Under the pieces are notes generated by a model, which was not told the origin of the DNA, did no database searches, and was given only the letters and a program-made list of their open reading frames with translations. 34,895 bases of DNA from Planctomycetia bacterium. Its GTDB lineage: Bacteria; Planctomycetota; UBA8108; UBA1146. The position numbers and the translations under genes were made by a program. Shown in pieces: positions 46 to 26,992 of the stretch. Location: NCBI GenBank assembly GCA_009937185.1, contig JAACCY010000063.1, positions 1 through 34,895 of the forward strand, written 5' to 3'. Position 1 is the stretch's first letter; every line of letters starts with the position of its first letter.

Positions 46-70
46 TCACAATTTGCTTTTAGAGTCTAGA

Positions 71-101
71 GGGGCAATCCTTACGGGGTTGCCCCTTTTT
101 T
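71..101 (+). terminator. Rho-independent terminator after the RGG protein
   Basis: A 10-bp stem is formed by 71-80 (GGGGCAATCC) and 86-95 (GGGTTGCCCC), with one T-G wobble and a 5-base loop. It is followed directly by a six-T run at 96-101. It lies between the stop codon at 45 and the next start at 116. Confidence 0.85.
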
Positions 102-115
102 CGTGGAGCTGTCAA

Positions 116-1618
116 ATGACTCGAAGTGTATTTACTAATGTTCTGAGGTATCCATGTTCCTCAGGTGAACCTCAAGACCTCTTCATTTCGAATGGGCTTG
201 TCCAGGGTTGGTATCCTTCTGGGTCTGTTGCCCTTTCTCAGGGCGACATCGTTCACGATATGAATGGGCATTGGATATGTTCCACTTTTGTTGATAGTCA
301 CTTACATCTTCTCTATACCGAGCAGTATCACCGACAGATTCAGGTCAAAAATTTAATAAGTACTCAACTTGAGCAGATCTTATCGGAGAGTTTGTCCGAG
401 ACCATCATTGGACATGGTTGGCGAGATCCTTTCCCGGAAACTCTCGGTCCCGATCCGAGGAGATTTTTGGATAAGTATGGGAATGGGCGACCCGTACTGC
501 TTTGGAATGCGGACTTTCACCGAGTTGTTGTTTCTTCCGCTGTACTTGAGCTCTCGGGATTCAACGCTGGTGAACACTCGGGAATCCTAGTGGAGCTCGA
601 GGCTGAAAAAGCTTGGAACGTTATTAAACCGGATCCGGCACAAGATGTTCCTGGAGCTTGTCAGAGGTTGTTGAGGAATGGTATCTCAGCAGCCACGACA
701 TTTGATAGAGGCGAATCTATCAAGGCATTGAAGGAGACTTCACCGGGGGACTTTGGTGTTTATGTTCGTCATGGTGTTCCTGAAGAAGAATTTATTGAGT
801 CCTGTAAGGATGAGATTCCAAAACCATGGGGGAGCCGTAATGACGACTTCGCTGCCCGTTGGATAAAAATATTCCTGGATGGGACATTGGGATCTAGGAC
901 TGCGTGGATGAAGTCTGATTATTCTGATGATTCGGGAAACACTGGAGTCGTTCGGAGATCAGGTGAGTCCCTAACCCAGACGGCCATCGCCGCAGGGACC
1001 GCAGGCTGGGGATTAGCAATTCATGCGATTGGTGACGCTGCTGTTGCAGAAGCATCGCGTGCTATCTCAGTAGCGAAATCCCAAAGAGAATCTGTCGATA
1101 TTTCCGATCGTATTGAGCACTTACAATTATTGGATCCTGCTGATATTCCGCTGATTCGATCTTCAGGTGCAGTGGCATCATTGCAGCCATGCCATCTTTA
1201 CGAAGATCGTCAATGGCTGCGTTCTCGTTGGGGACTTCGATCGGATCATGCCATTCCTTTTCGAGAACTCCTCGATGAGAGCATTCCGGTCATCACGGGA
1301 ACGGACGCTCCTGTTGAATCTTTAGATCCTTGGGCGGATATCAATGCCGCGGTAAACCGCATGGATAGAAATGGGAATGAAAAGGCTGAAGGCCCGAATC
1401 AAAGGGTTCAATTCAGGGAGGCGTTTCACTCAAAAACAGCAGGAGCTGCAGAAGCCAATTATCTTCCAGAAGGATATGGCACTCTCGATCCAGGATCTTC
1501 GGCAGACTTTCAGATATTGGATCGCAATCCGGAAGTGGTGACGTGCCTTGAAAATTCAGGATTGTCTCAGGTATATACTCGTGGAGTATTGCGTTGGAGC
1601 AAAGGTGAGTGCGAATGA
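116..1618 (+). CDS. YtcJ-like metal-dependent amidohydrolase
   Basis: A 500-residue enzyme of the amidohydrolase superfamily, Amidohydro_3/YtcJ branch. Visible family marks are the metal-binding DSHLHL (His62, His64), the block KIFLDGTLGSRTA, AIHAIGDAA, RIEHLQL, and GTDAPVESLDPW near the C-terminus. The superfamily hydrolyses amide, cyclic amide or ester bonds; the substrate of YtcJ-like members is mostly unknown and cannot be read here. ATG 116 is chosen because GGAG lies at 105-108 and the small N-terminal beta domain (LFISNG) starts close behind; the longer frame reaching base 2 runs through the terminator and is rejected. It shares an ATGA overlap with the following M19 dipeptidase, so the two are probably translationally coupled and may act on related peptide or N-acyl substrates. 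No signal peptide is seen, so it is probably cytoplasmic. Confidence 0.88.
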   Translation: MTRSVFTNVLRYPCSSGEPQDLFISNGLVQGWYPSGSVALSQGDIVHDMNGHWICSTFVDSHLHLLYTEQYHRQIQVKNLISTQLEQILSESLSETIIGHGWRDPFPETLGPDPRRFLDKYGNGRPVLLWNADFHRVVVSSAVLELSGFNAGEHSGILVELEAEKAWNVIKPDPAQDVPGACQRLLRNGISAATTFDRGESIKALKETSPGDFGVYVRHGVPEEEFIESCKDEIPKPWGSRNDDFAARWIKIFLDGTLGSRTAWMKSDYSDDSGNTGVVRRSGESLTQTAIAAGTAGWGLAIHAIGDAAVAEASRAISVAKSQRESVDISDRIEHLQLLDPADIPLIRSSGAVASLQPCHLYEDRQWLRSRWGLRSDHAIPFRELLDESIPVITGTDAPVESLDPWADINAAVNRMDRNGNEKAEGPNQRVQFREAFHSKTAGAAEANYLPEGYGTLDPGSSADFQILDRNPEVVTCLENSGLSQVYTRGVLRWSKGECE

Positions 1619-11403: not shown

Positions 11404-12206
11404 TGTTACAAGAAATTTGGCATAACAATAAACCAACATTGATACAGGCTTTGATCACACTTGTGATTTTCCTGATTCTTTCAAATGTTGCCAAGGGCAT
11501 AAGAAGTGATCATGAAGTTTCGCTTCAGAGGCACGAAGAGAATTCGTTAGTCCTTTCTCAGAAATTGCAGGACCTCGACGGCTTATTCGATGTCGAAAGG
11601 AAATCACGAACCGCGCTTGAAGATCGAAGTGCGGATTTGGTGAGTAAGTTATCCATTTCTGCTCAGCCGCTTCATCCTTTTCCTAAAGACGAAGACGCGA
11701 TTGCGACCGAGTTTAAGAGATCAAAAGATCTTGTATGGAATGACTTCAGGGAGAAAGCGAATAGGCTCGGAGTCATGACTCCATCGAAAGTGCCTAATTT
11801 TGATGAGAAGTCGAGTTTGACTATTAATCAGTGGCGAGACAGGTATTTGCTACTAGAGGTTCTCGATCGGTTTTTAAATGTTTTATTGCAGGTGAAGGTG
11901 ACGAGTGTCGATGACATTGCACCCGGTAACCGTGAGCAAGAGACCTTTTCTGATCCGGAAAAAGTCGTAGCACGCTACCCCATCGTTTTCAGTATATCTT
12001 GTTCACCGGCTCAAATCTCTGAGTTGTTCGCACGATTCCAATCGGACAATACATTCCTGTCGATAGAACCTGATCGAATGAAAGCTGGGAGCGTGAATCC
12101 TGGTCTACTTGAGGTCGTAGTTCGAGTTGTCGGCTTGGACGTCGAAGATCCCCGAGAAGAAGAATCGGGGAGTCGTCGTGGTTCCATTCGGAAACGGAGG
12201 GGTTGA
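11403..12206 (+). CDS. PilO/GspM-like inner-membrane protein
   Basis: A 267-residue bitopic protein with a short cytoplasmic N-terminus, one membrane segment at about 10-30 (LIQALITLVIFLILSNVA), a coiled coil (EENSLVLSQKLQDLDGLF) and a C-terminal alpha/beta half (YPIVFSISCSPAQISELFAR, LLEVVVRVVGLDVEDP) that fits the ferredoxin-like fold of PilO and GspM. Sequence similarity to named PilO is weak by eye; the call rests on topology and on its place directly after the PilM-PilN gene. The ATG overlaps the previous stop by one base with GAGAGGAAC upstream. It ends in a basic tail. Expected to pair with the PilN part of the previous protein in the periplasm. Confidence 0.7.
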   Translation: MLQEIWHNNKPTLIQALITLVIFLILSNVAKGIRSDHEVSLQRHEENSLVLSQKLQDLDGLFDVERKSRTALEDRSADLVSKLSISAQPLHPFPKDEDAIATEFKRSKDLVWNDFREKANRLGVMTPSKVPNFDEKSSLTINQWRDRYLLLEVLDRFLNVLLQVKVTSVDDIAPGNREQETFSDPEKVVARYPIVFSISCSPAQISELFARFQSDNTFLSIEPDRMKAGSVNPGLLEVVVRVVGLDVEDPREEESGSRRGSIRKRRG

Positions 12207-12207: not shown

Positions 12208-12585
12208 ATGCGTTGGAATATCGAAAAAGGATTTTTCTTCATAGGGATCGCCTTTTTGCTCCTGAGTATTCTTGGGCTTGCCCAAACGTTGATTCTTTCT
12301 GACCCCGTGGCAAATGTCGATTTGGCGCAGCCGGGTTCCAGTTCCGGTGGGGCTGTGGGAGGCTCTGTACGTATTGAATGGTATGAACCCGATGCCGGTT
12401 TGACGATAAGGAACCCATTTCAAGCGATCAGTGATTGGAAGAGTTCGCCCGCCGGGACGCTCGGTACTCCTCCGCTCGGTGATCTTCGACGTCGTGTTCC
12501 TTTACCTCCGTTGTTCTCAGGCGAGGCGAATGCCTGGCTGGTGTCAGAGGCGCAAATGCCAAACGCTATTGAGTCGGAGGAGTAA
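12208..12585 (+). CDS. Small bitopic protein in PilP/GspC position
   Basis: A 125-residue protein with one membrane segment at about 8-30 (GFFFIGIAFLLLSILGLAQ) and a Gly/Ser/Pro-rich external tail. A RNPFQ motif after the linker resembles the '(R/D)PF' signature in PilP and GspC proteins, which connect the inner-membrane platform to the outer-membrane secretin. It is too short for the HR or PDZ domains of a full GspC. ATG 12208 has GGAGG at 12196-12200; the frame extension to 12127 overlaps the PilO-like gene and is rejected. The assignment is mostly positional; it could be an unrelated small subunit specific to this cluster. Confidence 0.6.
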   Translation: MRWNIEKGFFFIGIAFLLLSILGLAQTLILSDPVANVDLAQPGSSSGGAVGGSVRIEWYEPDAGLTIRNPFQAISDWKSSPAGTLGTPPLGDLRRRVPLPPLFSGEANAWLVSEAQMPNAIESEE

Positions 12586-12589
12586 TCAG

Positions 12590-14956
12590 ATGTTGATATC
12601 GAAATTGAATATGAGTTTCAGTAGATTTTTGTTGTTGATCTGCTGGGTCAGCATGATGACCGTTTCTATGCCGCTTTATTCGCAGAACGATTCCAACGAT
12701 TTGGAAGTTCGACCAGACGATATTATCGAATTAAGCAATGGAAACAGATTTGTTGGGGAAATCATTCTTGAAACTAATGACTTCGTTAAATTTGAAACTT
12801 CTGGAGGAAGCACAAAAATTCAGCGAGCTGATATTGTTCGAATCTTTTACAAGAATCCTCCAGAGGTGGTCTATAAGAAGAGATTGCGATCACTCGACGC
12901 CACGGATTATGAAAGTCAGGTGAATCTTGCTGATTGGTGCTTGGAATCTGGGATAAATCTCCGTGATTCAGCCATCACGCATCTTCAAGCAGCGGTTTAT
13001 CTGAATGCTGCGAAAACGGACGCTTTTGAGCGCCTCGTTCCACTCTACATTTCTCGTGAGTTTTTGACGGTGAATTCCGATTCCCGTGAAGTTAATTTGA
13101 GAGAAGAGTGTGAGATATTGCTTCGCGGAATTCGAGCGGGCGTTCAAATCGATGGTTTGGATATTCGTGACAATGCGATTCGATCTTTGATCAGAGTTGG
13201 AGATATTCAGGCTGCTGTCTTGATTCTCGAAGCGATCGCTTCAGGTGATCGAGATTTGCCGAATACTATTTCCGCAATGCGTCGACTTGTTGTTCTTTAT
13301 GACGCATTAGGGAGACAAACAGATTCAAGATCTATGGCTCTTCAACTGCGTGAAGATGGTGGTGGATCCGACTCTGAGGTTCTTCTTCGAGAAATTCGTT
13401 GGGCTGCTGAAGACGAAGCCGCAGGAATCGCGGGATCAGCGGATAAACTCGAGAATCTTATGGAAGATTTGCTCGTCCTTGGTGATGCGGACGGAAAAGC
13501 TTATCTCTATCGAGGGTCAGTTCGATTATTGAATGACGATCTAAAGGGAGCTGAAGCGGATTTCTCGAAGGCTTTTGCCCAGGGTGAGGTCGATGCAAAA
13601 GCAGCGACGACATATGCGCTCTCTTTCGCCAGAAAAGGCGATTTTACAAAAGCACTTGGATTACTCTCATCTGTTGCAGACTCTGACACATCCCCTGTCG
13701 ACTGGAGATTGGTGGAAGCCTATGTTCTCGAGAGTCAGGGAGACATTGTTGCAGCTTTAAATTTGTACGAGGAAGCTCGGCTTCAACCGGATGCTGGTTG
13801 GCAGGCAAAGTTATTGGCATTTTCTGCCAAGCGAAGAGTGGATCCAGATTGGGATCCCGTCCCTGCTATTCAGGATCTGATGCAATCCGATATATTGAGT
13901 TCTGCGGCCTTCGCGGAGTGCTGCTTACTACTGGGGGATGAATTCCTTCAAAGAGGCGAGAATGCGAATGCTCGTCGTTGGTTGGAATACGCCAATGCCA
14001 GTGGCCTTGATACCCCAGAATTGAAAATTCGTTTGGCGATGGCTCAGTCGGGTCCCGGTGGCAATATTGATCGAGCTCGATCGCTATTGAGTGGGGTAAC
14101 TGAGTTAGACAAGTTCAACCCCGATGCTTGGAACGCCTATGCCCGATTCCTTTTTTCAGCAAAAGACTATGTTGGAGCTCGTGATTCGTTATCGACATGT
14201 ATTGCATTATTCTCCAGCGAGGAAAAAGAATCTTCCGCTTTAGTGATGCCTCCCACTTTGAGGTGGGCAATGTCGGCATTAAGGCAAGTCGAGAGAGTTC
14301 TTGGGGAAGAGTATTGGTCAGATGATTTTGTTAGAGAATCTGGAAGTGCACTCCGCAATAACTGGTCAGAAGAAGAGTCTTTTGGAATCAATGTCAGCCT
14401 TGTCAACGGTATGGTTTCTTTTGAAGGCATTCAAAGATTCCAGCCCGATCGACTGACGACTATTAAAAGAGAAATTCTCACTCCTCGACTATCTGCCATC
14501 CGATCTTCGTTAACTCTTCTTAAAGCAGGAGAAGGCACACGAGTTGCTCTGAGAATTGAGGATCAATCGGGAGGTGGCGTCGTCTTCTTCAGAGACCCCG
14601 ATGGAGTATTGGGATTTGCTCTGCTCGGAAATGACGAACCGATGGTTGTCCGTACAGACTCTGAGGATTTGGCTGAGGAATACGATTTAATCCCGACTCG
14701 TTGGGATGTCTCGCCAGAAGGTCATTCACTTGAGATCGCTTTTTCCTCTCGCGATAGTGGAGGAAAAGGTGAAGCTGAAATATGGTTTGACGGTATCAGG
14801 ATCGCCAAGGATGTTCCCTACCGAGTTTCTCGTAAGCGTGGAGTTCAAGCAGGAGTCTCGGGACAAGCGCCGTTAGATGAAGCGTGGAACCTACAGGTGG
14901 AAATGTTTGAGGTCTTCCGTAAACGAGCGAAAGAAGTTCAAGACAGGGAGTTTTAA
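12590..14956 (+). CDS. Exported TPR-repeat protein of the pseudopilin cluster
   Basis: A 788-residue protein with an N-terminal signal sequence (FLLLICWVSMMTVSMPLYSQ). After it comes a short beta module (IIELSNGNRFVGEIILETN...) of a type I associate with planctomycete proteins, then a long helical region from about 100 to 620 with TPR/Sel1-like units (YLYRGSVRLLNDDLKGAEAD, YALSFARKGDFTKALGLL, WNAYARFLFSAKDYVGARDS). The last ~170 residues are beta-rich (TRVALRIEDQSGGGVVFF, EIWFDGIRIAKDV) and may form a jelly-roll. It may be a periplasmic or outer-membrane scaffold, in the manner of PilF/PilW pilotins, but is much larger. ATG 12590 has GGAGGA upstream; a frame extension to 12431 overlaps the preceding gene. 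It lies four bases after the small PilP-like gene and touches gspG. Confidence 0.8.
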   Translation: MLISKLNMSFSRFLLLICWVSMMTVSMPLYSQNDSNDLEVRPDDIIELSNGNRFVGEIILETNDFVKFETSGGSTKIQRADIVRIFYKNPPEVVYKKRLRSLDATDYESQVNLADWCLESGINLRDSAITHLQAAVYLNAAKTDAFERLVPLYISREFLTVNSDSREVNLREECEILLRGIRAGVQIDGLDIRDNAIRSLIRVGDIQAAVLILEAIASGDRDLPNTISAMRRLVVLYDALGRQTDSRSMALQLREDGGGSDSEVLLREIRWAAEDEAAGIAGSADKLENLMEDLLVLGDADGKAYLYRGSVRLLNDDLKGAEADFSKAFAQGEVDAKAATTYALSFARKGDFTKALGLLSSVADSDTSPVDWRLVEAYVLESQGDIVAALNLYEEARLQPDAGWQAKLLAFSAKRRVDPDWDPVPAIQDLMQSDILSSAAFAECCLLLGDEFLQRGENANARRWLEYANASGLDTPELKIRLAMAQSGPGGNIDRARSLLSGVTELDKFNPDAWNAYARFLFSAKDYVGARDSLSTCIALFSSEEKESSALVMPPTLRWAMSALRQVERVLGEEYWSDDFVRESGSALRNNWSEEESFGINVSLVNGMVSFEGIQRFQPDRLTTIKREILTPRLSAIRSSLTLLKAGEGTRVALRIEDQSGGGVVFFRDPDGVLGFALLGNDEPMVVRTDSEDLAEEYDLIPTRWDVSPEGHSLEIAFSSRDSGGKGEAEIWFDGIRIAKDVPYRVSRKRGVQAGVSGQAPLDEAWNLQVEMFEVFRKRAKEVQDREF

Positions 14957-15577
14957 ATGAGAAATAAACAATCGGGATTCACTCTTGTCGAACTTCTTGT
15001 CGTTATCGCCATCATTGGTGTTCTCGCTGGAATGGGAAGCCAGATGATGGGGTTTTCAATTCGTAAGGGTGGAATTTCTGCTGCAGAGTCAGAAATTCAA
15101 CGTTTGACGCTGGGCGTAGAGTCCTTCCAGTTGGATTACGGTGATTATCCTCCGTCCTCGATGGAGGACGAATACGAAGTTACAGGAAACCGATTGGACA
15201 GCGGGAATGAGAGCATGGTTGCTCATCTCGCTAGCCGAGCTCGGGGTCGATCTTATTTTGAATTTAAGGAAGAGTATCTGGATAATCTCGATTCAGACAT
15301 CCTCGCCAATGACATGGTAGAGCAAATGAGTTGGGTCTTCGGTGACAACCAACTGCGTGAATATTTGGACCCTTGGGGGAACCCGTACGTTTACATTCAT
15401 AATCGTGATTATGGACGTGAGTTTTCTGTCAGTCAGGAAGGTGTTCCTGTGATGGTTATTTCTGGCACATCTACTAAAACAGCTACATTCCATGAGCCTA
15501 TTCGGTTTCAGATTTGGTCTGCCGGCCCGGATGGCATTCACGAAAATGGAAAAGGGGACGACGTTTCCCAATGGTAG
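14957..15577 (+). CDS. GspG-like major pseudopilin
   Basis: A 206-residue prepilin-like protein. MRNKQSG|FTLVELLVVIAIIGV gives a class III prepilin leader with cleavage after Gly7, Glu at mature position 5 and the long hydrophobic helix. DYGDYPPS and the C-terminal DPWGNPYVY and AGPDG blocks are typical of GspG, where this region binds calcium. It is longer than the ~145 residues of classical GspG because of an insert (about 75-120) between the two blocks. It should form the shaft of the pseudopilus. ATG 14957 follows the preceding stop directly. The prepilin peptidase needed is not encoded in the window. The next pseudopilin overlaps its end by seven bases. Confidence 0.9.
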   Translation: MRNKQSGFTLVELLVVIAIIGVLAGMGSQMMGFSIRKGGISAAESEIQRLTLGVESFQLDYGDYPPSSMEDEYEVTGNRLDSGNESMVAHLASRARGRSYFEFKEEYLDNLDSDILANDMVEQMSWVFGDNQLREYLDPWGNPYVYIHNRDYGREFSVSQEGVPVMVISGTSTKTATFHEPIRFQIWSAGPDGIHENGKGDDVSQW

Positions 15578-16962
15578 TGAACAGACCTCAATCCTCAATT
15601 GGTGTGACATTAATCGAGCTTCTCATCGTGATGTCTATCCTCATGCTTGTATTGGGAATGTCGGTTTCTGTATTCCGATCATTTGGAGAAGGCCAAACTC
15701 TTGAAGTCTCCGCGAGTCGTGTTTCTAGTGCAGTGAGAGCCGCAAGAAATTGGTCCATTTCCACAGGGATGCCCAGTCGTGTCCTCGTCGATCCGGACGC
15801 ACGAAAAGTGACAGCATTTGGATTTGATACCGTAGCTGCATGGGATTTCGAAGATTTAGCATCTCAGCCCCAAACACAAGAGCTCCCTTCTGGTTTTGAA
15901 GTTGAAGGTGCATTTCGACAAAAAGCGCGTGTTACGGGACATGTTGAAACGGATTCTGGTTCAGTCGGGAGTGGGATTTTTTTCATCAATGATGGTGCAG
16001 CATTGCAGTCCGATTGGCTTCCTAGATATCGCGTCGATCGCGGGTTTTCGGTAGAAGCCTGGGTGCAGTTTTGGCAACCGGAATGGCAACCTGAGGACGG
16101 AATCGAGCCCACGGGTGGTTTTAGTGATCCTCGAAGAGAAATGCGACTTGCGATCATGAGTTCTCCGGGAGCTTTTGAAGTGGGCTTACTCGCTGACGGT
16201 TCCGTCTACCTCGAAATCGGGGATCCCAAAGGGGCGATGGATGAGGAATTCTTTCGCGCTCAAACCGAATCTCAGAGGGTTATTCCCGATCGTTGGACAC
16301 ATATACGGGCCACTTTCGACGGAGTCTCCATCGTGATAGAGGTCGATGGAGTTGAGCATGAATGGTACCCCGAAAATTTTGAATGGATCGTTGAGGAAGA
16401 TTGGCCACCTTTGCCAAGCTCTGTTCCTCCAGTCGATAGTGATTTGTACATCAGTCATCCGGCTCGATTCTTTTTAGGCGGGCTGGATCAGATCGTATTA
16501 CGATCAGCGACGGATCCTGAAATTGTAGAAATGCCGCTCGATGTCGAATTGCTAGGTTCGCCTCAACTGATTTACATCAATGGGAATGGATCTCTCAATC
16601 AGATTGAACATGATTTACCCGTTGTGATTCACGTAGCAGAAGTGGGCGACGTTGCGGATTTAGAGTTGGTGGATGGCACCTCTGTTTCTAAAGAGTCTTT
16701 CCGGGATCAGATGTCCCGAAAGAAGAAAGAACGTGAGGATCAGCAAGGAAAAGTGGAGGAAGCCTTCGGTAGTCCTATCGGTGACTTGATGAGTTATCTC
16801 GAAGATTGGCAATCCACTTCAGAAGACGGGGAAGAGGTGGAAGATGTTTATCTGTTACCGCTCTCTCCTGGGCAGCATTTTGGTATAGGTGAGGTCGATG
16901 AGCACACTGTATTGAGATTGCACAATGTTGTGATTGATTTGACGGGAGCTATCCGTGGTTAA
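15571..16962 (+). CDS. GspH-like minor pseudopilin with LamG-like domain
   Basis: A 463-residue pseudopilin. The leader ends SSIG|VTLIELLIVMSILMLVL: cleavage after Gly11, Val in place of Phe at +1, Glu at +5. The next segment (VSSAVRAARNWSISTGMPSR) is like GspH/FimT. From about residue 100 to 250 it has a concanavalin-like LamG fold signature (FSVEAWVQFW, DRWTHIRATFDGVSIVIEVD), absent from normal GspH proteins of ~170 residues. The C-terminal part has an acidic helix (MSRKKKEREDQQGKVEEAFG) and a closing beta pair. ATG 15571 lies in the end of gspG; the frame extension to 15514 has no ribosome binding site. It overlaps the next gene by eight bases. A carbohydrate- or surface-binding role for the LamG part is inference. 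Confidence 0.85.
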   Translation: MVVNRPQSSIGVTLIELLIVMSILMLVLGMSVSVFRSFGEGQTLEVSASRVSSAVRAARNWSISTGMPSRVLVDPDARKVTAFGFDTVAAWDFEDLASQPQTQELPSGFEVEGAFRQKARVTGHVETDSGSVGSGIFFINDGAALQSDWLPRYRVDRGFSVEAWVQFWQPEWQPEDGIEPTGGFSDPRREMRLAIMSSPGAFEVGLLADGSVYLEIGDPKGAMDEEFFRAQTESQRVIPDRWTHIRATFDGVSIVIEVDGVEHEWYPENFEWIVEEDWPPLPSSVPPVDSDLYISHPARFFLGGLDQIVLRSATDPEIVEMPLDVELLGSPQLIYINGNGSLNQIEHDLPVVIHVAEVGDVADLELVDGTSVSKESFRDQMSRKKKEREDQQGKVEEAFGSPIGDLMSYLEDWQSTSEDGEEVEDVYLLPLSPGQHFGIGEVDEHTVLRLHNVVIDLTGAIRG

Positions 16963-19900
16963 AGAGTGCTATCAAACTAAGCCCGAATCCGGAATGGCAT
17001 TGTTGATGGTTGTACTCGTATTGGCAGCCTTGACTGCCATCGGTACGCCCTTTCTTGTTTCAATGAGATTGCAGGAAGCCGGATCTGCTAAATCTCTTGC
17101 AACTCACAAGGCAAGATTGGCCGCAAGAAGTGCACGCGATCATGCTGTGAGTCATTTATTCGATACTCATCATAGTCGTGAACGTGATTTTTGGGAGCCA
17201 GGGGCAAACGCTGGGGATCTTGTCGACGATCTCGATGAACTTCAGGTTTCATTTCCTGATCAGGCAGAAACAGAATCATTAGATAATACGATATCCTCCG
17301 CTCTCACAATGAGAGGTGCCGGAGACCGTATATTGGACGCCCGTGTTATTGACGAACAAGGCAAGGTGAATATCAATACCGCCATGCCGAATTTGGTGGG
17401 AAACCTTCTGGCTGGAAGCCATCTATCGGAGAACATCGCATTTGATCAGGAATTAGAAATTCTTCCTCTTGATGATACGAGTATGTTTCCTGCCGACGAC
17501 GATCCTGACTCTATTGATGGAGTTGTCGTTATTCTTAACCCACTCTTTTTTACGACCGAGGCTGTTTCCTATACTGGTAAAACTGCACAAGGATTGACCG
17601 GAGTTTTTCGTGGTCAATACATGTCTGGTACTTGGGAGCATCAAAAAGGCTGGCCCGTTTTCGACATTCGTGGTTATAAAACGTTTTTGCATCGACTTGC
17701 GAATCTTTCTGATGGAGAGATCGCTAGCTTCAGAACACCGCTAGGCATTCGACAGATATCCGATTGGTCAGTGGTGCCGTATTTCCTTCAAACTTTGGCC
17801 ATCGTTGGATTGAGTATGTCGAATATGGCCGATTGGGGTTTGACCCCTGAGATGCTAGTTCGAGCTGGATTAGATCCATCGATTCTTGCTCGAGAACCGG
17901 AAGAGGTTGACGAACAAGAATATCGAGACGCTCGTAAAAAGTTTCTCGATGTAGGAATCCCAAGAGAGGTGATTGACCTTGTTGAGTCGGTCAGAGGAAA
18001 AGCCGGTGTTATTGAAGCCTCGGATTTGGTCGAGCAATTTGGTGGAGTCGACAAGGCTCGTGGCAACGCTTTTAAAGGTGTTTACCAGACCTTTATTGCT
18101 CCTCAAATTAAGCGCGTTCAAAGTCAGAGTAAAAAATATTTCCCGGGTGCTGTTGCAGCATATCAAGAAATCTATGACCTCCCTGATATGGAAACGATAT
18201 CTGCGGGTGAGTTCGAAAAAATTAGAGAGTACATCACGACCAACTCAACATTGCCGAGAGATTGGTCGCAAGAGCAGATGGTCGAAGGAGAGATCTCCAA
18301 CAGCGCTCTTTTAGGCGTTCCTCAAATGCGATTGCCTCGTTATGATTTCTTCAATCCAGGCACTGTGGTTCGCATCCGTAGTAACTCTGACCCCAATAAA
18401 TTTGAATACGGTTTGGCTGCTGGCGCATTCCCGACACCTCGTGGCGGTTTTCGGGGAGGTGGTCGAGGTAGCATTTTTCAAGGCGGAGTGATCCTTAAGG
18501 AACCGCTGCGATATGAATGGGCGGAACGGGAAGCGATGGTCAGTGCTGCTTTACGCCATCCTGTGAATATTAATACCGCTCCAGCTCGAGTGATTCAGGC
18601 TGTCTTGACGGGGATCAGTACGACTAGATTTGGTCGAAACTTTAACTCTGTAACCGTTGAAGAAGCCCGGAAATTGACAGAACGTTTGATGGCTGAAATG
18701 CCGATCGAAGGTTTTGAGGAATTACGAACCATCGTAGAAGCGGCACAATTGTCAGGGGATTTAGACGGACAAGATTCTTCTGCGATATTGATTAATGCAT
18801 TGAATCCTAATAATCCGAGGCTCTCCGTATCCACGACATGGTTTTGCTACAGTACCAATGAGATTTATACGATCGAGTCTACAGGTGTCACCCGTAGTCC
18901 TTCCGGTTTTCCTGAGGCAACGGTTCGTTTTCGTGAAGTGATAGAAGTCGCTCCACCCGAGTCTTTGTTTTTACGCTTGGAAACTCAGTTCGATTGGGCT
19001 TCCCAATATTTAACTCGAAATTCTGGCGGTCGATTCTTTACGGGATCTACAGCCTCTTTTGTCCCGGGTCGTGCTGCGAATCTGATGGTCACTGGGCCCG
19101 TTCCCATGAATGGACGGTTGTTCGCCGCTCCCTCTATGGACGAAGGAACATTAAGGGGGCTCACCCTGACGGTGCCAGAGATCAGTAATAATTGGGGATT
19201 TGGTCAGGTTGGACTTTTTGAAGTGGAAAGCTTCCCGAACACTATTGAGGGACGCGAATTGGAAGATGGCTCTTGGTCGCGAGGCACCTTTATAGAGTCA
19301 CAAGTGGCTATTCCAAATCCTTCGCCGGGTGGAGAATTTGAGATTGAATCAGGGGTGACAGACGCTCTTTCAACCGTTCCTGCTCTCGTAGAGTTTTGGT
19401 ATCGACCCCGCTGGGGATCTAGAGGGCAAAATCGGATTATTTTTGATATGCCTGGAGCTCAAGGAGAACCATGGCGAGATCGAATTCGACTCTTCTTTGA
19501 TAAAGATACTCAAGAATTGGTTTTACAAGTTTTCGATGAAACGGGATCAGCGCTGGCATGGGACTCGAGTTTTGCTCCTGCTGCCGAAATCCGTTATGCC
19601 GTAACTCCGAACTCTTTTGCTGACGATACTTGGTATCACATTTCAGCAGGTTGGCGATCCACGCGTCCTGGCGATTTGGTATTGTTGATTGATCGGAAAC
19701 CTGTAGGTAAGCATTCTTGGTTAACGCGATTGGCAGCTCCTGTCAGGACATCAGATATAGGTGCGTACCTCGAAGACGAGGATATTGTTGATCGTCTTCC
19801 CAACACAGGCACGTTGTTGATCGGATCGGAAGCCGTGGATTACTCAAAAGCAGATGGCGGGTCAGTAATTTTCCTTCCTGTCGGCTTTGACGAAACATTG

Positions 19901-22627
19901 CAGAGTACTCGTGGGAGACGAGGCACGATTCGCCAAAATCATCCAGCGGGGACTCCTGTTCGTTTATTGGGATATTCATTACCTTTGGCGAACTCCGACC
20001 CCAATCTTGGATTGGAAGATTCTTCACAACGCATCATTTTGGGTCCTGGAGGAGCGAGTCTTGCGTTTGACTTACAACCGACGCGTAGAATTGAAAGCAT
20101 CACACCTGCAGGCGCGGTGACGTTGGGTCCGTCCAGTTATGCTATCGCCGATACGACCGCTGCTTTTGTGATTCCTGGATTGACCAGTACTTTGGAGTTG
20201 GAACCCTTTGGGCAAACGTCGAACAGTTTATTGGTTCAGACTCAGGCTTCTCATCCCTTTGAATTAGGCTTCCCACCGCAGGGTTACATTCATATTCGTA
20301 AAATAGAACGGAATGCTGAAGGGGTCATGGTTCACACCCAGAGTGAATTTGCCAAATATTCTTCGATCACTCCGGGGCCGGTGGCTGGATTGTATCGATT
20401 CACTGCCATGGGGCGGGGATTACTCAACACCGATGCCATAGATGGAATCACTGGTACTCCTGGGGACGTACGTCTTACAGTGAGAGCCGTTTCTATAGAA
20501 GCGGCTGAAGGTGGTCTCGATGCGACCTATGCGCCTTCAGGCACGATTCAATTGACCCGTCCGAGGGGGAGTGAAGTCTTACCCGGGACCAATGTCGTCA
20601 ATGGTTTAGCGGGGCATCTTGGCGATTCCGAATGGATTCTCTACGATCGTATCGCTGAGGGCCGATTCTTTATCGTTGATCCAGATGCCCATGAAGTCTT
20701 TCGAGGCTACACCGGAAATCGATATGTCAGTATCGGAGATGCTTTTCGGCGCAACAGGCTGAGACCCGATCTCGATTCGATTCAGTTTGTTCAGGCTGGA
20801 ACAGAAATAATTCAAGTGGTACGTGGCGTGGGTGCGCAGGTCGCGCCGTATGACGCAGTCGTGCTGGGTGACGGGGCCGGAAATCCTATCAACCGCCAAG
20901 TGGAGTCACTCAAAATGCGAGTCCATAAGGTGAAGGAGACCGATTCTGGGGTCTATCTGAGTTTTTTAACTCCACCTGAAGGAACTTATCTCCCCAATCA
21001 GGATCCTCGAATCGGAAAATTCCCGACGGGCGGTCTTCCGATCACGTCATCGGGGACGATTCAATTTGGTGGTTCACCCATCGCCGGAGCCGAGTTGCCC
21101 GGCGTCGGAACCATTGATGAAGTTCGCTTTTCTAGACTGGATAGCACCGATGTGGAGAGTCATATCTTCCCCATCGGCTCCACGGGTTTGCAGTCCGTCG
21201 AGGTCGAATCTTCTCCCAACCTTCCTTCGGGAACCCGCTCTGAGGTTTTACGAACATTTTACAGAGAAGGGGACTCTGAGAGTTCCAACGGAGCCATCGA
21301 TCGTTTCAGAATCGTCGGTCGTTCACGTTTGATTACGAATTTTGGGCAAGGGGGTGGAATCAGTCGAAGCTTCAGCCCTTCTGATCCACGAAGTTTCGGA
21401 ATGGGCCTTAGAGAAGGTCTCCTGATGGTGGATGGCGAAGCGATGCATTACCTCTTCGATTCGGGGGAGGTCGAACCCCCAGTAGAAGTTCTATTGCAAC
21501 AGAACTTGGGTCGAGATCCTTTTCTTGACGAAGAGGCTTTGGATGCCGGAGTCGTCATTCCTTTCGACCCTCTTCGAGATTTGAGAAGTGAAGTCGTCCG
21601 TACCATTCAAGTGAATACCACGACGGGATTGCCCCCAAATGGAGGTTTCCTTGAGATCTTGTCCGGGACTTCAAGGGAAATTATTTACTATAGCAGTGCT
21701 AATGGTAATCAGCTGAGTAACGTCCTTCGGGGACAACTTGGAACACCTGTGAACGGATATGTATACCAGTGGAGTTATCTTCGTAATCAGGAGACTGTCG
21801 TCGTCACCAATACAATTCGCATGCGGCTTTTACCAACACGAGACGTCGATGTTTTGACACGTGGAATGTTGAATACAGCGAGGGGAGGTAACAGCCTAGG
21901 AGCCAATTCCTTGTTGCCTATTCCTGCGATCCCTGTTGGACGTTTGGCGGGTGGAAATACTGAATCAGAAATCCCCATGCTGGAAGATCTTCGGAACTTT
22001 CCAAATAGAGAAGGCTACTTCATTGTCGATGATGCGAATCCGGCTACTCCGGATGAAATCATTGCCATTGCAGGAAAAGTAGGGGGGTCATTCCGACTCT
22101 ACCGTGACGATAGAAGTGGGCGTGGGATTTTCAGAGGAAGATTCGGGACTCAAGTTCGCGACTTCGTGAAAGACACTCCTGTTGTCGAATTTATGGCAAG
22201 GCATCATGACCACTACCAACCCAGAGTTGAATCGAAAGATCTTCAATATTTGGAACGGGCATGGACAATGCCTGGAACAGTTTGGGATCGAATTTCTTGG
22301 GCTGTTGAAGAGAGTAGAAGTCGCAGAACCGCTGGAACTGTTCGTGTTCTGGCTCGTTTTGAAGGTGTTCCCTCTTGGGACTCAGAGCCTACGAACGAAC
22401 CCGGTGGACTTTACCTGTTCGACGATCCCGAAGGAGATAATCTTCTCGATATACTTTCCGATGCGATGGAGTTACGAATATTATTCCGGCATAGGGAAGG
22501 GGCTTACGGACCTCTTCCTGGTGGTGGTTGGAATGACGAATACAAGCACCTTCCTGTTCTACGCCAGTTCTCCATCGAGCATCGAAAAGAGTGGCGAGTA
22601 CTCCATCACGAGGAGATCCCTTTCTAA
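16955..22627 (+). CDS. Giant GspK-like minor pseudopilin with LamG-like and repeated beta modules
   Basis: An 1,890-residue protein, about six times the usual GspK length. The N-terminus has a prepilin-like leader MVKECYQTKPESG|MALLMVVLVLAAL and lacks Glu at mature position 5, as GspK does. GspK-type helix-hairpin-helix marks occur twice: DEQGKVNINTAMPNLV near 130 and NINTAPARVIQAVL near 536. A LamG-like domain lies near 800-930 (ALVEFWYRPRW, TWYHISAGWR, LVLLIDRKPVGKH). Much of the rest is built from a repeated module of the pattern GEhIxY...G.....RG..GT (first copy near 203, others in 950-1760). A Gly/Arg-rich patch (RGGFRGGGRGSIF) lies near 495. GTG 16955 has GGGAG (16944-16948) upstream. 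In type II secretion GspK caps the pseudopilus tip, so these domains would be displayed at the tip. Confidence 0.85.
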   Translation: MVKECYQTKPESGMALLMVVLVLAALTAIGTPFLVSMRLQEAGSAKSLATHKARLAARSARDHAVSHLFDTHHSRERDFWEPGANAGDLVDDLDELQVSFPDQAETESLDNTISSALTMRGAGDRILDARVIDEQGKVNINTAMPNLVGNLLAGSHLSENIAFDQELEILPLDDTSMFPADDDPDSIDGVVVILNPLFFTTEAVSYTGKTAQGLTGVFRGQYMSGTWEHQKGWPVFDIRGYKTFLHRLANLSDGEIASFRTPLGIRQISDWSVVPYFLQTLAIVGLSMSNMADWGLTPEMLVRAGLDPSILAREPEEVDEQEYRDARKKFLDVGIPREVIDLVESVRGKAGVIEASDLVEQFGGVDKARGNAFKGVYQTFIAPQIKRVQSQSKKYFPGAVAAYQEIYDLPDMETISAGEFEKIREYITTNSTLPRDWSQEQMVEGEISNSALLGVPQMRLPRYDFFNPGTVVRIRSNSDPNKFEYGLAAGAFPTPRGGFRGGGRGSIFQGGVILKEPLRYEWAEREAMVSAALRHPVNINTAPARVIQAVLTGISTTRFGRNFNSVTVEEARKLTERLMAEMPIEGFEELRTIVEAAQLSGDLDGQDSSAILINALNPNNPRLSVSTTWFCYSTNEIYTIESTGVTRSPSGFPEATVRFREVIEVAPPESLFLRLETQFDWASQYLTRNSGGRFFTGSTASFVPGRAANLMVTGPVPMNGRLFAAPSMDEGTLRGLTLTVPEISNNWGFGQVGLFEVESFPNTIEGRELEDGSWSRGTFIESQVAIPNPSPGGEFEIESGVTDALSTVPALVEFWYRPRWGSRGQNRIIFDMPGAQGEPWRDRIRLFFDKDTQELVLQVFDETGSALAWDSSFAPAAEIRYAVTPNSFADDTWYHISAGWRSTRPGDLVLLIDRKPVGKHSWLTRLAAPVRTSDIGAYLEDEDIVDRLPNTGTLLIGSEAVDYSKADGGSVIFLPVGFDETLQSTRGRRGTIRQNHPAGTPVRLLGYSLPLANSDPNLGLEDSSQRIILGPGGASLAFDLQPTRRIESITPAGAVTLGPSSYAIADTTAAFVIPGLTSTLELEPFGQTSNSLLVQTQASHPFELGFPPQGYIHIRKIERNAEGVMVHTQSEFAKYSSITPGPVAGLYRFTAMGRGLLNTDAIDGITGTPGDVRLTVRAVSIEAAEGGLDATYAPSGTIQLTRPRGSEVLPGTNVVNGLAGHLGDSEWILYDRIAEGRFFIVDPDAHEVFRGYTGNRYVSIGDAFRRNRLRPDLDSIQFVQAGTEIIQVVRGVGAQVAPYDAVVLGDGAGNPINRQVESLKMRVHKVKETDSGVYLSFLTPPEGTYLPNQDPRIGKFPTGGLPITSSGTIQFGGSPIAGAELPGVGTIDEVRFSRLDSTDVESHIFPIGSTGLQSVEVESSPNLPSGTRSEVLRTFYREGDSESSNGAIDRFRIVGRSRLITNFGQGGGISRSFSPSDPRSFGMGLREGLLMVDGEAMHYLFDSGEVEPPVEVLLQQNLGRDPFLDEEALDAGVVIPFDPLRDLRSEVVRTIQVNTTTGLPPNGGFLEILSGTSREIIYYSSANGNQLSNVLRGQLGTPVNGYVYQWSYLRNQETVVVTNTIRMRLLPTRDVDVLTRGMLNTARGGNSLGANSLLPIPAIPVGRLAGGNTESEIPMLEDLRNFPNREGYFIVDDANPATPDEIIAIAGKVGGSFRLYRDDRSGRGIFRGRFGTQVRDFVKDTPVVEFMARHHDHYQPRVESKDLQYLERAWTMPGTVWDRISWAVEESRSRRTAGTVRVLARFEGVPSWDSEPTNEPGGLYLFDDPEGDNLLDILSDAMELRILFRHREGAYGPLPGGGWNDEYKHLPVLRQFSIEHRKEWRVLHHEEIPF

Positions 22628-23712
22628 TGAAAAAAAGTGAAGCTGGATTAACTCTCATTGAAATTCTCGTCGCTCTGGGCATTTTCATGATGCTGGGATC
22701 CAGCTTGGTGATGTTCCTTCGTGATGGAATGTCGACTTGGCAAATTGGAGAATCGCGTCGAGAGGCATACGAACGCGCTGGAGCTATCATGGATTTGATA
22801 GGGGAAGATCTTCGTTCTTCCTTTACGCAATCAGATCCTGGTCCAGACAACGGCCTCGTTGACGTCTTATTGCTCTGCGATACCGATGGTTTTAATCGGC
22901 CTCGACTTCGTTTAGTGAGGACCCTGTCTGACGAGACTCGAAATCCTGTGACCAGAATAGCAGGGTCTTACACCGGCGGACTCGCAGAGGTGGATTACCG
23001 CAATGATTCCCAAGAAGCCATACTAGGGATACTGAGAGCTCCGGGTGGGCTCGCTGAAGTCGCGTATCTCATGGGACCGGAATCAGGGTCCGAAGTTCTT
23101 TGGAGAGGAATGAAGTCACCCATAGGGGGAGAGTCCACTCTATTTGACGTGGCAAACCTTCTCCCTGATGTCGATGGTATCCCGATGCGTTCTCGACCCG
23201 TAGCCGACGGAGTGTTGTATCTCGCTTGGTCATTTTGGGGTGGAGATCGTCGACGTTGGAGTGACGGTAAGTCGCAGCAGGCGCTGCCGTATTGGGATTC
23301 CACGCGAGGCATCCTTGAGCCCTCCGCGGACTCAGGAATCGCTTGGGATGCGAGAAGCCGCGATCGTCATGAAGATGACGTCTTCCCGGATACTGCAGAA
23401 ATATTGCTCGTCCTGAATCCTTCAAGATCACGGGCATTGGCCAGACTCACTACTGATATTGGTGACGACGACGATGTTTTGATTCTCGATAGTGTGAATG
23501 AATACTCCACAAATGGTCAGCTTCATATCCGTCTGGATTCGGAGTGGATTCTTGTGGGCGAGATAAAGGGCAACAGTTTTGTGGATTGTCAACGTGGTGT
23601 CCGGGGGACACAAGCTGCTGAGCATTTACGAGGAACTCGCGCCGTGAGTGGAACTGAGTTTCGCCGAACGATTCGTATCCCGGGTTACCGTGACGCAAGG
23701 GGGCCAAGATAA
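22627..23712 (+). CDS. GspJ-like minor pseudopilin
   Basis: A 361-residue pseudopilin with leader MKKSEAG|LTLIEILVALGIFMMLG (cleavage after Gly7, Glu at +5), followed by a GspJ-like region (YERAGAIMDLIGEDLRSSF) and beta-rich body (DGVLYLAWSFWGGDRRRW). Near the C-terminus is one copy of the module repeated in the neighbouring GspK-like protein (EWILVGEIKGNSF...QRGVRGTQAAEHLRGT). Classical GspJ is about 200 residues, so this one is enlarged. ATG 22627 overlaps the previous stop by one base; GAGGAG lies upstream. In the minor pseudopilin tip complex GspJ contacts GspI and GspK, which are its direct neighbours here. Confidence 0.85.
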   Translation: MKKSEAGLTLIEILVALGIFMMLGSSLVMFLRDGMSTWQIGESRREAYERAGAIMDLIGEDLRSSFTQSDPGPDNGLVDVLLLCDTDGFNRPRLRLVRTLSDETRNPVTRIAGSYTGGLAEVDYRNDSQEAILGILRAPGGLAEVAYLMGPESGSEVLWRGMKSPIGGESTLFDVANLLPDVDGIPMRSRPVADGVLYLAWSFWGGDRRRWSDGKSQQALPYWDSTRGILEPSADSGIAWDARSRDRHEDDVFPDTAEILLVLNPSRSRALARLTTDIGDDDDVLILDSVNEYSTNGQLHIRLDSEWILVGEIKGNSFVDCQRGVRGTQAAEHLRGTRAVSGTEFRRTIRIPGYRDARGPR

Positions 23713-24164
23713 TGGTCTCTCTTGAACATTCTCATGATCCTATTGTCCAAAGATCCGATTCTGGATTTTCACTTCTTGAAGTCATCGTTGCTTTAGGAAT
23801 ATTGGCGGTGGGTGTGGGGGCAGCTATTTCATTGTTTACAGCAGGGACTGCTGCTCACAGTCGTGCTATCGACCGTTTGAAAGCGATCGAAATCTCAGAG
23901 TCAGTTTTCGCTGCGATTGAAGGCGCTTTGAGAGACGGTGCGAACATCGAAGATATACAAACGAGTGATTTGATCCCGTCAGTATTGAAATCATGGCCAG
24001 GAGTGAAGAGCGAAATCGCTTTTTCGACGATTCCGAAGCCGGACTTTGTGGATGAAGTGGTCATTCGATTGAGTATTCGATGGATCTCTCGTGGTCAGCA
24101 GGCCGAAGAGAACTTTGAGCAGATCATTGCTCGATCAAGAAGTGTTCGATTGCTTCCCGAATAA
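23712..24164 (+). CDS. GspI/PilV-like minor pseudopilin
   Basis: A 150-residue prepilin-like protein with a long leader of 18 residues ending SDSG|FSLLEVIVALGILAVGV, with Glu at +5. The rest is short: a helix (HSRAIDRLKAIEISESVFAA) and a small beta sheet (DEVVIRLSIRWISRG), fitting GspI, the partner that nucleates the tip. ATG 23712 overlaps the preceding TAA by one base, with AAGGGGG 8-14 bases upstream. It is the last gene of the 18.6-kb operon; the convergent holA stop is directly adjacent with no room for a terminator. Confidence 0.85.
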   Translation: MVSLEHSHDPIVQRSDSGFSLLEVIVALGILAVGVGAAISLFTAGTAAHSRAIDRLKAIEISESVFAAIEGALRDGANIEDIQTSDLIPSVLKSWPGVKSEIAFSTIPKPDFVDEVVIRLSIRWISRGQQAEENFEQIIARSRSVRLLPE

Positions 24165-25369: not shown

Positions 25370-25552
25370 GACCCGGGAGTTCCGGGTCGGAAGTGTGGTG
25401 AAAATCCACCGCGGTGCCGCCGCTGTAACCGGGGACAATCCCTGCATTCTGACATTAGGTCGTATTCCTGATAGTCAGTAGCCACTTTGATCGAGAGATC
25501 GAGGGAAGGCGCAGAGGAGAGGTTGATCCGGAAGTCAGAAGACCTCCTTGAA
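25370..25552 (+). promoter_or_regulatory. Cobalamin (B12) riboswitch aptamer
   Basis: Conserved cobalamin-riboswitch elements appear in order: GGTGAAAATCC (25398-25408), GCCGCCGCTGTAACCGG (25417-25433), GCCACT (25480-25485), GAGGGAAGGC (25501-25510) and the B12 box GAAGTCAGAAGACC (25531-25544). The closing P1 stem is visible: TCAAGGA 25371-25377 pairs perfectly with TCCTTGA 25545-25551, extended by T25370-A25552. An early hairpin GACCCGG/CCGGGTC lies at 25380 +/- 10. Binding of adenosyl- or other cobalamins normally represses the downstream gene. The gene following is a secreted beta-propeller protein, not a known btuB or cob gene. Confidence 0.93.
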
Positions 25553-25561
25553 GATGATGGT

Positions 25562-25590
25562 CCTTTTCACGCCCCGAGCAGGGCAAAGGG
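25562..25590 (+). promoter_or_regulatory. Expression platform hairpin pairing the ribosome binding site
   Basis: CCTTT (25562-25566) pairs with AAAGG (25585-25589) and GCCC (25571-25574) with GGGC (25581-25584), enclosing a six-base loop. The AAAGGG paired here is the ribosome binding site of ATG 25598. This is what a translational 'off' state of a B12 riboswitch looks like. GACC (25541-25544) in the B12 box could instead pair with GGTC (25559-25562), a possible competing structure. Confidence 0.65.
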
Positions 25591-25597
25591 TTTTGCT

Positions 25598-26992
25598 ATG
25601 CGATTTTCATTCTTCCATTTTCATGATCCATCCATCTCCGACGTTCTGACATATCGGCCCTTCCCGATTCTTTTCATAGTCATGTTGGCATTGCTGCCGG
25701 GCTTAGATGCTTCGTTATTCGCTCAGAATACAAACGCGACGATTTCTCTGTCGATCCCTGAAAGTTTGGTCGATGCGCATCCGTACAGGATTGTCAGCGC
25801 TCCAGGTGAGGAGTTGGGATATGTCAGCCTTTCCGGGGACGTGACACCCTTTGGTGAGGCTGTCGAAGATTATGCGAATAATCTGATCCAAGAAATTAAT
25901 CTGCACACTTTAGAAAAGGTCCGCGTTTTCCAGGTAGGGTTCTTCCCTACTGAAATGGTGATCGTGGGTCAGCAACTTTTCGTCACGTGTTCCAATGATA
26001 ATTCGCTGTACTCCATCAACTTAGACACTTCGAACGTCACGAGTTTCCCTATGACAGATTCTTCCGGAGCGGACGTATCATTTCTTTCGGGGATTGTGGA
26101 AAGTCCAACGGGTGAAATCTATGTGGGATCCAATGGCGGAAATTTCGACGGTTCTGATGAAAATGTTATCGTTTTTGATCCTGTGTCACAGTCGATAGTG
26201 GGTCGTTTAAATGTACCTGGAGCCATCACTCGTTTTTCTTGGCACAATAATCAACTCGTGATTCCCGTCGGATATCCAGATAATGACTTCTCTGCCGCTC
26301 CTGTGTTGCGCTGGATCGATCCCGTCACAAGTATGGTGACTGCTGAGTTGCCGATATCTGTAGATACTTCCGATTTCCCAATGCCTTCCGATATCACCTC
26401 TCTTGGGGACGGCACGGCGGCTTTAACCGTCATCGGTGGAAGTAATGAAGTGTTCCATATCGATTTGGAGAGCCAGACCTTACTCGGTAACTGGACGCTT
26501 CCCGGAACAGACTATTTACAAAGTCGGGTACTGCCGTTAAACGACAACACTCTTGTGGTGGCAGACTTTATCGATGGAGTTCTGCATCAGATTGATCTGG
26601 CGACAGGCGACATTGAGACCTTTGCCTCCGGTTTGCAGCTTCCCGTGGACATGCATTTACGTGATGGCCGTTTGTTCGTCGCTGAGCAGGCTCTTGAGCA
26701 GCTGAGCGTTTTTGTTGGTCCGGGTGGTTTTATCCGAGGAGACGTCAACAACGATCAAATGATCGACATTAGTGATCCGATAATGTCTCTGGGGTATCTG
26801 TTTTTGGGCGGTGATTTAGCTTGCCAAGATGCCGCTGATTATAATGATGACGAATCTCTCGACCTTTCAGATGCGATATCTTTGCTCGAGTTTTTGTTTT
26901 CTATGGGGGATTCCCCAGCATATCCCTATCCTCTAGGCGGAGGTGATCTGGGTGGCGATGATCTGGATTGTGAACAGGGGCTTGATTTTTGA
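25598..26992 (+). CDS. B12-riboswitch-controlled secreted beta-propeller protein with dockerin-like tail
   Basis: A 464-residue exported protein. The N-terminus has a hydrophobic segment ending LPGLDASLFAQ, a signal peptide with a long n-region and no lipobox Cys. Residues about 60-370 contain YVTN/YncE-like beta-propeller blades (VRVFQVGFFPTEMVIVG.QLFVTCSNDNSLYSINL; LVVADFIDGVLHQIDLATGD). From about 377 to 464 it has two dockerin-like calcium loops (RGDVNNDQMIDISDPIMSLG; DYNDDESLDLSDAISLLEF). ATG 25598 has AAAGGG seven bases upstream; the frame extension to 25487 runs through the aptamer. Control by a cobalamin riboswitch suggests a role in acquiring B12 or corrinoids. In Bacteroides the surface beta-propeller BtuG binds B12; homology to BtuG cannot be judged by eye, so the function is inference. 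A second propeller gene follows 50 bases on. Confidence 0.85.
   Translation: MRFSFFHFHDPSISDVLTYRPFPILFIVMLALLPGLDASLFAQNTNATISLSIPESLVDAHPYRIVSAPGEELGYVSLSGDVTPFGEAVEDYANNLIQEINLHTLEKVRVFQVGFFPTEMVIVGQQLFVTCSNDNSLYSINLDTSNVTSFPMTDSSGADVSFLSGIVESPTGEIYVGSNGGNFDGSDENVIVFDPVSQSIVGRLNVPGAITRFSWHNNQLVIPVGYPDNDFSAAPVLRWIDPVTSMVTAELPISVDTSDFPMPSDITSLGDGTAALTVIGGSNEVFHIDLESQTLLGNWTLPGTDYLQSRVLPLNDNTLVVADFIDGVLHQIDLATGDIETFASGLQLPVDMHLRDGRLFVAEQALEQLSVFVGPGGFIRGDVNNDQMIDISDPIMSLGYLFLGGDLACQDAADYNDDESLDLSDAISLLEFLFSMGDSPAYPYPLGGGDLGGDDLDCEQGLDF

Follow-up and report, generated by a model that had tools for sequence, protein, structure and literature searches.

Within the window, by which we mean the whole stretch of 34,895 nucleotides analysed here, a single gene (16955–22627; GTG start, TAA stop) encodes a GspK-like pilin of 1,890 residues (P0001, referred to below as giant K). 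As GspK usually has about 320 residues, the locus raises the question of whether this protein is a GspK at all and, if it is, what such a large addition would do at a filament. The predicted mass is 206 kDa, of which about 134 kDa lie beyond residue 670. A preliminary description made from the letters of this DNA had counted some 1,500 added residues, which would form a very large tip structure, perhaps one that binds a surface or polysaccharide; we find about 350 extra residues within the GspK-like fold and about 1,220 after it. Coordinates below are those of the window and refer to the + strand unless marked (−).

Architecture of giant K

The protein begins with a prepilin leader (residues 1–13; 16955–16993) that ends in Gly. 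The junction between leader and mature chain reads PESG/MALLMVV and places Met, not Glu, at mature position 5; Glu was found at +5 in none of 52 related ORFs by a pattern search that mis-sites a few of them. Two motifs, DEQGKVNINTA (residues 133–143; 17351–17383) and HPVNINTA (residues 535–542; 18557–18580), occupy what we take to be the positions at which GspK carries its two motifs. Both positions line up in the relatives, and D133, E134, K137 and N139 of the first motif are invariant across an alignment of 45 sequences, consisting of the window protein and 44 of the 48 relatives listed with enough coverage of the query.

The same 45 sequences were used for an AlphaFold2 model of residues 1–800 (mean pLDDT 74, unreliable over residues 680–800), which opens with a helix of 58 residues (12–69). 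When the Foldseek candidates for this model were given a second look with VIA-align, the top four were all GspK/XcpX chains, namely 6utu_C (Z 14.0; 214 residues aligned, rmsd 3.0), 5vtm_X (Z 13.7), 3ci0_K (Z 12.6) and 9a1f_T (Z 12.6), and the next row stood at Z 8.9. Foldseek itself placed no GspK among its best 50 matches to the N-terminal model, and a sequence profile of the N-terminal part searched against the PDB reached GspK at E 0.53 and no better. Among family models, Pfam T2SSK gives 17.2 bits on the whole of P0001 and 24.6 bits on an excised stretch, with a cut-off of 24.2, and P0001 (39.2 bits) misses the NCBIfam GspK equivalog cut-off of 130. Among 30 giants scanned, P0001 itself plus 29 chosen from the 53 related ORFs, the NCBIfam GspK model matches 29 at E ≤0.001 (best 8.3e-15) and Pfam T2SSK matches 12 at 0.01. 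In the predicted structure, then, residues 1–668 of P0001 have a GspK-like fold, with inserts, that follows the leader at residue 14 (residues 14–668; 16994–18958).

One of the inserts is modelled as a beta-barrel (residues 432–534; 18248–18556) situated just before the second motif. It aligns to a phage tail tube chain at Z 8.9 in VIA-align, and because many barrels tie at this level we name no family for it. Giant K therefore resembles GspK/XcpX (3ci0_K, 5vtm_X, 6utu_C) in its leader lacking Glu5, its long N-terminal helix, its NxN-type motifs, a structural match running from residue 42 or 50 to 668 and its G/H/J/I neighbours, but it is about six times longer, holds a module and a beta-barrel inside the fold, and adds LamG, modules and a C-terminal domain.

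The model of the extension (residues 691–1890) is all-beta throughout (mean pLDDT 78, pTM 0.79); its alignment (A4) includes 37 of the 40 relatives listed with enough coverage of the query. LamG domains come first among the structural matches, with agrin 3v64_B (Z 14.5; 159 residues aligned, rmsd 2.9) and laminin alpha-2 LG5 1qu0_C (Z 14.3), and the first part of a LamG/ConA-like domain is placed at residues 759–945 (19229–19789). These alignments span model ranges such as 69..704, equivalent to residues 759–1394, with 149–159 residues aligned for the two chains, although a range of this kind gives end points alone. Because the span runs from 759 to 1394 and a conserved GxxDExR stretch is located near residues 1385–1391, the LamG domain is apparently split in the model by an insertion of about 440 residues containing modules 2–4 (see below), and we propose that its last strand or strands lie at about residues 1370–1397 (21062–21145), where the structure alignment ends at 1394. 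Pfam Laminin_G_3 (PF13385) reaches 17.7 bits on P0001 at residues 812–918, short of its cut-off of 27.6, and 24.0 bits when the two LamG parts are joined. As the HMM stops at position 104 of 151, before the last strand, the position of that strand is taken solely from the structure alignment. Laminin_G_3 matches 18 of the 30 giants at 0.01. The LamG fold of P0001 is nevertheless clear in the modelled structure, notwithstanding a score below the Pfam cut-off. The leader, the missing Glu5, the NINTA motifs, the N-terminal GspK fold and the LamG-like domain of the preliminary description are all seen again here.

The remainder of the extension is less readily named. A profile of the C-terminal part searched against the PDB drew T-cell-receptor chains, starting at E 0.056, as well as a pentraxin (E 0.19), and a search of viral structures with the same part returned phage structural proteins at very low TM-scores, to which we give no weight. 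The last 151 residues (1740–1890; 22172–22624) form an all-beta domain of unassigned fold that is conserved in relatives.

A module of about 65 residues, which we term RG-GT, occurs six times in P0001 and once in the neighbouring GspJ-like protein; its consensus, from an HMM iterated from motif matches, contains GYLLIGDEVIYYTGRTGNSFTGLFRGAFGTTARAHPAGAPV. Copy 1 (residues 170–243; 17462–17683) is situated inside the GspK-like fold, and copies 2 (945–1008; 19787–19978), 3 (1105–1163; 20267–20443), 4 (1192–1255; 20528–20719), 5 (1550–1615; 21602–21799) and 6 (1676–1753; 21980–22213) are distributed along the extension. Their i-E values range from 2.7e-17 to 1.5e-4, copy 4 being the weakest (1.5e-4). 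The copy in the GspJ-like protein (23485–23646), a protein that was kept out of HMM building, has an i-E of 4.1e-12 in a small search set, and the module HMM matched 0 of 235 shuffled proteins. In a set from which L072, L107, L108, L114 and four near-identical loci were left out, and whose alignment (A7) contains 47 of 73 copies, at least one copy is present in 45 of 47 giant proteins and six copies in 20 of the 47, P0001 being counted and some of the proteins being cut. One copy is also present in 23 of the 24 GspJ-labelled ORFs of a 44-locus neighbourhood table that includes a few loci twice; the only one lacking it is truncated at the end of its contig.

Further insight into this module comes from comparison with phages. 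The PHROG profile phrog_4406 (virion structural protein) matches residues 926–1018, around copy 2, at E 1.7e-5, and phrog_1101 (tail protein) matches the GspJ-like protein at E 0.0025. With the module consensus as query, matches appear in 254 of 50,697 phage records, the best at 47% identity and 5e-9 and most of them in cyanophages, and the genes among the best 30 of the 254 are annotated as structural protein, baseplate wedge subunit, tail tube B, YHYH-domain or hypothetical protein. This phage link appears with the module consensus and the PHROG profiles only: raw P0001 searched against the phage records gave nothing at E 0.001, and the module profile searched against the PDB placed a minor tail protein (8vjh_A) at E 0.26. 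Pfam Rcc01698_C matches 4 of the 30 giants and the module consensus at 0.044; we presume that PF23666, the Rcc01698-like C-terminus, indicates a gene transfer agent link. From these comparisons the RG-GT module is similar to proteins of the phage tail and baseplate. It appears to be shared with the structural and baseplate proteins of tailed phages, where it is part of the virion; here it is borne on pilins.

Operon and probable motor

The genes preceding giant K encode an FHA-GAF-sigma54 activator (5556–7628), an FHA-domain protein (7625–9793), a PilM/GspL-like platform protein that is also Amuc_1101-like (9790–11403), a small membrane protein without family match that is GspM/PilO-like by position and size alone (11403–12206), a TPR protein named by family match and synteny (12431–14956), a GspG-like major pseudopilin (14957–15577; 49.7 bits, cut-off 88.85) and a GspH-like pseudopilin with LamG (15571–16962; LamG 24.6 bits, cut-off 27.6). 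The activator, the FHA-domain protein and the platform protein are named from family matches. Giant K is followed by a GspJ-like pseudopilin of 361 residues (22627–23712), named from its operon place and weak matches (gspJ E 0.0042), and by a GspI/PilV-like pseudopilin (23712–24164; PilV 4.3e-6, GspI 1.4e-4, both below cut-off). The GTG of giant K overlaps the GspH-like stop and its own stop overlaps the GspJ-like ATG at 22627 by one base, and because of these overlaps the genes look like one operon.

A scan of named genomes with two short patterns yielded 54 loci, many of them cut by contig ends and some near-duplicates, in which we count K in 53, GspH in 43, GspG in 42, GspJ in 33, GspI in 32, PilM in 29 and TPR in 28. 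LamG is found in 23 of 26 GspH-like proteins scanned (best 4.8e-18), this set being the window's own and 25 of the 43 found, with near-duplicates and unclear starts left out. All 21 operon PilM-like proteins in set A8 (the window protein and 20 of the 29 matches) match both Amuc_1101 (best 1.1e-39) and TIGR01175 PilM (best 1.6e-34) at E ≤0.001. For the window protein the two models tie, and it misses the NF045709 cut-off of 650 bits (44.3). There is no D, E or F in the window operon, and of the loci fetched L114 alone has all three; L113 has an F in its giant-K locus. Directly 3' of giant K in another locus (L039, 13526–17296) is a secretin-like ORF of 1,257 residues that scores 103 bits with the PilQ of the window's genome.

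Beyond the window operon, at 25487–28284, two adjacent proteins read as secreted beta-propellers with dockerin-like ends; the second matches Vgb_lyase and, weakly, Dockerin_1, and the first has no family match. A GH113-like glycoside hydrolase (4.9e-28) is encoded at 33584–34762 (−).

Elsewhere in the window's genome there are three GspF-bearing sets, on contigs C115, C53 and C211. That on C115 has the order D-E-F-G, with a secretin that scores best as GspD (254.9 bits, cut-off 351), and that on C53 is a PilB/PilT/PilC set. On C211 (L145, 5318–10078) two adjacent PilB/GspE-like ATPases precede GspF; both ATPases carry an MshE-type c-di-GMP motif above its cut-off, and no pilin is seen beside them or GspF in the stretch fetched. 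PilT-like ATPases, named by partial matches, are also found on C33 and C214, and a secretin on C121 scores best as Amuc_1098 (1.1e-31; 109.7 bits, cut-off 750). An FHA-sigma54-like protein also precedes the separate D-E-F set on C115; together with the FHA-sigma54 genes of the window (5556–9793) this hints at common control of both sets.

In all four relatives fetched, two or three further prepilins with Glu5 come after the C115-type D-E-F-G genes, and M- and L-like homologues of genes on contig C230 (L and M being named by reading) lie near D-E-F-G in relatives. In a sister genome (G005) a single contig carries D, E, F and G together with three further prepilins that have Glu5, genes resembling L and M, and a 517-residue homologue of the C230 K-like protein; the C230 protein itself matches the GspK model at 3.3e-11. 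Judged by gene content, the C115 set is an ordinary T2SS that has its own K-like protein in this genus. Unlike the GspK of a T2SS, giant K lies outside any D/E/F operon in a genus already provided in this way, and because the ordinary T2SS of the sister genome has its own K the giant set appears to belong to another type 4 filament. As to what would drive it, the F that lies next to the giant set of L113 reaches 417 bits against the F of C211, compared with 270 and 252 bits against the other two, and because of this ranking C211 is the likely motor of the giant-K filament, with the one locus L113 as the basis.

A proposed filament tip and other readings

Because giant K combines a GspK-like fold, a LamG-like domain and about 134 kDa of extra mass, a large cap is the natural reading. 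We propose, with a moderate degree of confidence, that it caps, as a K-type subunit, a type 4 filament of Planctomycetota separate from the ordinary T2SS, and that it is probably a large grasping filament tip. In this model the prepilin leader would be cleaved, K, I and J would form a tip trimer as in the T2SS, and an E/E/F motor encoded elsewhere (contig C211) would drive the filament, which would push the extension of about 134 kDa through a secretin; the LamG and phage-tail-like modules would then be the parts that bind to glycans or to a surface, in attachment or in the capture of polymer. Counting against the proposal, a tip subunit of 206 kDa may be too large for a secretin, the motor link comes from one locus and the secretin link from another, the operon contains no D/E/F, the LamG and GspK cut-offs are missed, and in several near-complete families the members listed have no extension or match it only weakly.

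It is possible, though we think it unlikely, that the extension remains in the periplasm or secretin vestibule and there recruits large substrates, such as glycoside hydrolases, to a second T2SS-like machine. The GspK-like fold, the G/H/I/J neighbours and the GH113-like protein within the window are compatible with such a role, and planctomycetes are known for an enlarged periplasm and for their many enzymes acting on carbohydrates; however, a complete ordinary T2SS is already present in the genus, the operon lacks D/E/F, and the presence of lectin or tail-like modules on two other subunits as well would suit display better than secretion.

A more ambitious version of the tip, in which a phage-tail-tip-like structure catches polymers or prey cells and pulls them into the periplasm, seems to us distinctly unlikely. 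The Akkermansia Amuc_1098–1102 pilus offers a partial parallel, as the operon PilM resembles Amuc_1101 and the C121 secretin resembles Amuc_1098, although both are far below the equivalog cut-offs. Akkermansia reportedly imports mucin with a pilus-like machine, which fits the idea of uptake. If uptake by giant K were true, the phage-tail-like tip would be a candidate machine for macromolecule uptake by planctomycetes, the apparatus for which is described as uncharacterised as of 2017 (PMC5394234); the same source describes CCCP-sensitive uptake of dextran into the periplasm and pili-like fibres in Planctomycetota, the machine not being known (PMC5394234).

That giant K is an envelope spacer or scaffold, anchored by its prepilin helix and outside any filament, we regard as improbable: the long all-beta extension would suit such a part and the helix at residues 12–69 could serve as a plain membrane anchor, but an anchor would not need a leader, a full K-like fold or a linked G-H-K-J-I set.

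Returning to giant K as a filament tip, the nearest parallels are modular pilins. PilC of Streptococcus sanguinis, a modular pilin, binds glycans through a ConA-like module (PMC9934059), and PilB of the same species is a modular pilin of 50.5 kDa (PMC8179133); the survey of modular pilins in the latter includes PF13385 among the modules, classes GspK as modular and gives a protein of 860 residues as its most extreme multi-domain case. Like giant K, PilB and PilC carry an extra binding module on a pilin in a proposed tip complex, but they are T4P minor pilins, whereas giant K has 206 kDa, a split LamG and phage-tail-like repeats. XcpX is reported to occupy the uppermost place in the tip of the T2SS (PMC6211770). 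The Kil Tad-pilus tips of Myxococcus (PMC12075869) have, as in our proposal, a heterotrimeric minor-pilin tip with an enlarged member, KilN4, but Kil is a Tad system, the extra domain of KilN4 is reported to be without structural homologue, and the excerpts of that paper mention no LamG. As lectin pilins are already known, the kind of protein is not new; what is new is how large it is, that its LamG is apparently split, that it has phage-tail-like modules in common with the GspJ-like pilin and that the operon is spread through the phylum. Excerpts of the literature on planctomycete GspK and pseudopilins or on modular pilins (see also PMC10688800, PMC9415379) describe no giant GspK and name no pilin as large as P0001 (206 kDa), nor do they join GspK-like caps, lectin pilins and phage-tail modules as giant K does. 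The locus thereby provides a definite set of candidate genes by which planctomycetes may attach to surfaces and capture polymers.

The start of Verru_Chthon A (TIGR02600, a model of 1,296 positions) also resembles the N-terminus of giant K, the match being limited to that N-terminus; P0001 (8.4 bits) misses the cut-off of 332.3, and 3 of the 30 giants match at E ≤0.001. Verru_Chthon A–D presumably form a cassette of pilin-like proteins. On contig C174 of the window's genome (L138, 7518–11072), a second very large pilin-like protein, of 1,185 residues, is encoded after a gene that reads as RecA-like; the N-terminus of this protein matches GspK at 1.2e-9 and Verru_Chthon A at 6.9e-6, and it shows nothing to giant K or the RG-GT module.

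Reading frame and spread of the family

The notion that so long an ORF is a fusion or an assembly artefact, to which its origin in a fragmented MAG (2.77 Mb, 254 contigs, 87% complete) lends some colour, is hardly conceivable, because the frame is open in other assemblies across the phylum and is under purifying selection in the one pair tested. The frame at 16955–22627 is free of stops throughout its 1,890 codons. Matches to P0001 are present in 46 of 59 genomes searched (the window's own included), and in the same genus, family and order other assemblies keep the frame open at 1,851–2,044 residues, with the exception of G007, G011 and G013, in which it is cut by a contig end. In comparison with the 97%-identical L066, the one pair tested, dN/dS is 0.04 for residues 1–670 and 0.09 for residues 671–1890, so that both core and extension are under purifying selection in this pair; in comparisons with L065 and L061 synonymous sites are saturated in nearly every segment. 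The giant ORF and its long reading frame, as first described, are thus real. Of the two outcomes that the preliminary description named as refuting it, a predicted N-terminus lacking the GspK fold and an ORF that is an assembly artefact, neither came about.

The preliminary description had proposed a search for pseudopilins of more than 1,000 residues. Among the 39 related ORFs uncut by a locus end, 38 have 1,260–2,226 residues, with starts set by pattern matching, and the remaining one (L114) is a K-like ORF of 349 residues beside D/E/F/G in a locus with no phylum in its title. The 54 loci are mostly titled Planctomycetota; one (L102) is from Candidatus Uabimicrobium amorphum, some are without phylum, and L072, L074 and L075 are titled Bacillota or Proteobacteria yet are contigs of G013 and G010, in the window's family.

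A profile of residues 691–1890 matches 147 of 196 Planctomycetota genomes of at least 85% completeness at E 0.001, and 86 of the 128 in a high-quality subset. In 128 of the 196 the match is below 1e-20; the other 19 of the 147 are weaker and may reflect shared domains only. In the near-complete genomes listed for families f29, f47 and f8 the extension is missing or weak, and because several near-complete families are without it we claim no link to the crateriform structures of Planctopirus. The NCBIfam GspK model matches 177 of 199 genomes, 9 of them above its cut-off, and the best matches listed are mostly frames of 300–700 residues; some genomes, G040 and G053 among them, have both an ordinary and a giant K. 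On these sequence profiles, giant K is a family spread through Planctomycetota and not a single giant, a point that the preliminary description missed, as it did the six RG-GT modules, the LamG of the GspH-like pilin, the module of the GspJ-like pilin and the separate ordinary T2SS of the sister genome. Two loci contain tandem giant K genes, at 3916–12072 in L094 (38% identical) and at 4178–12347 in L104 (41%), which are perhaps alternative tips.
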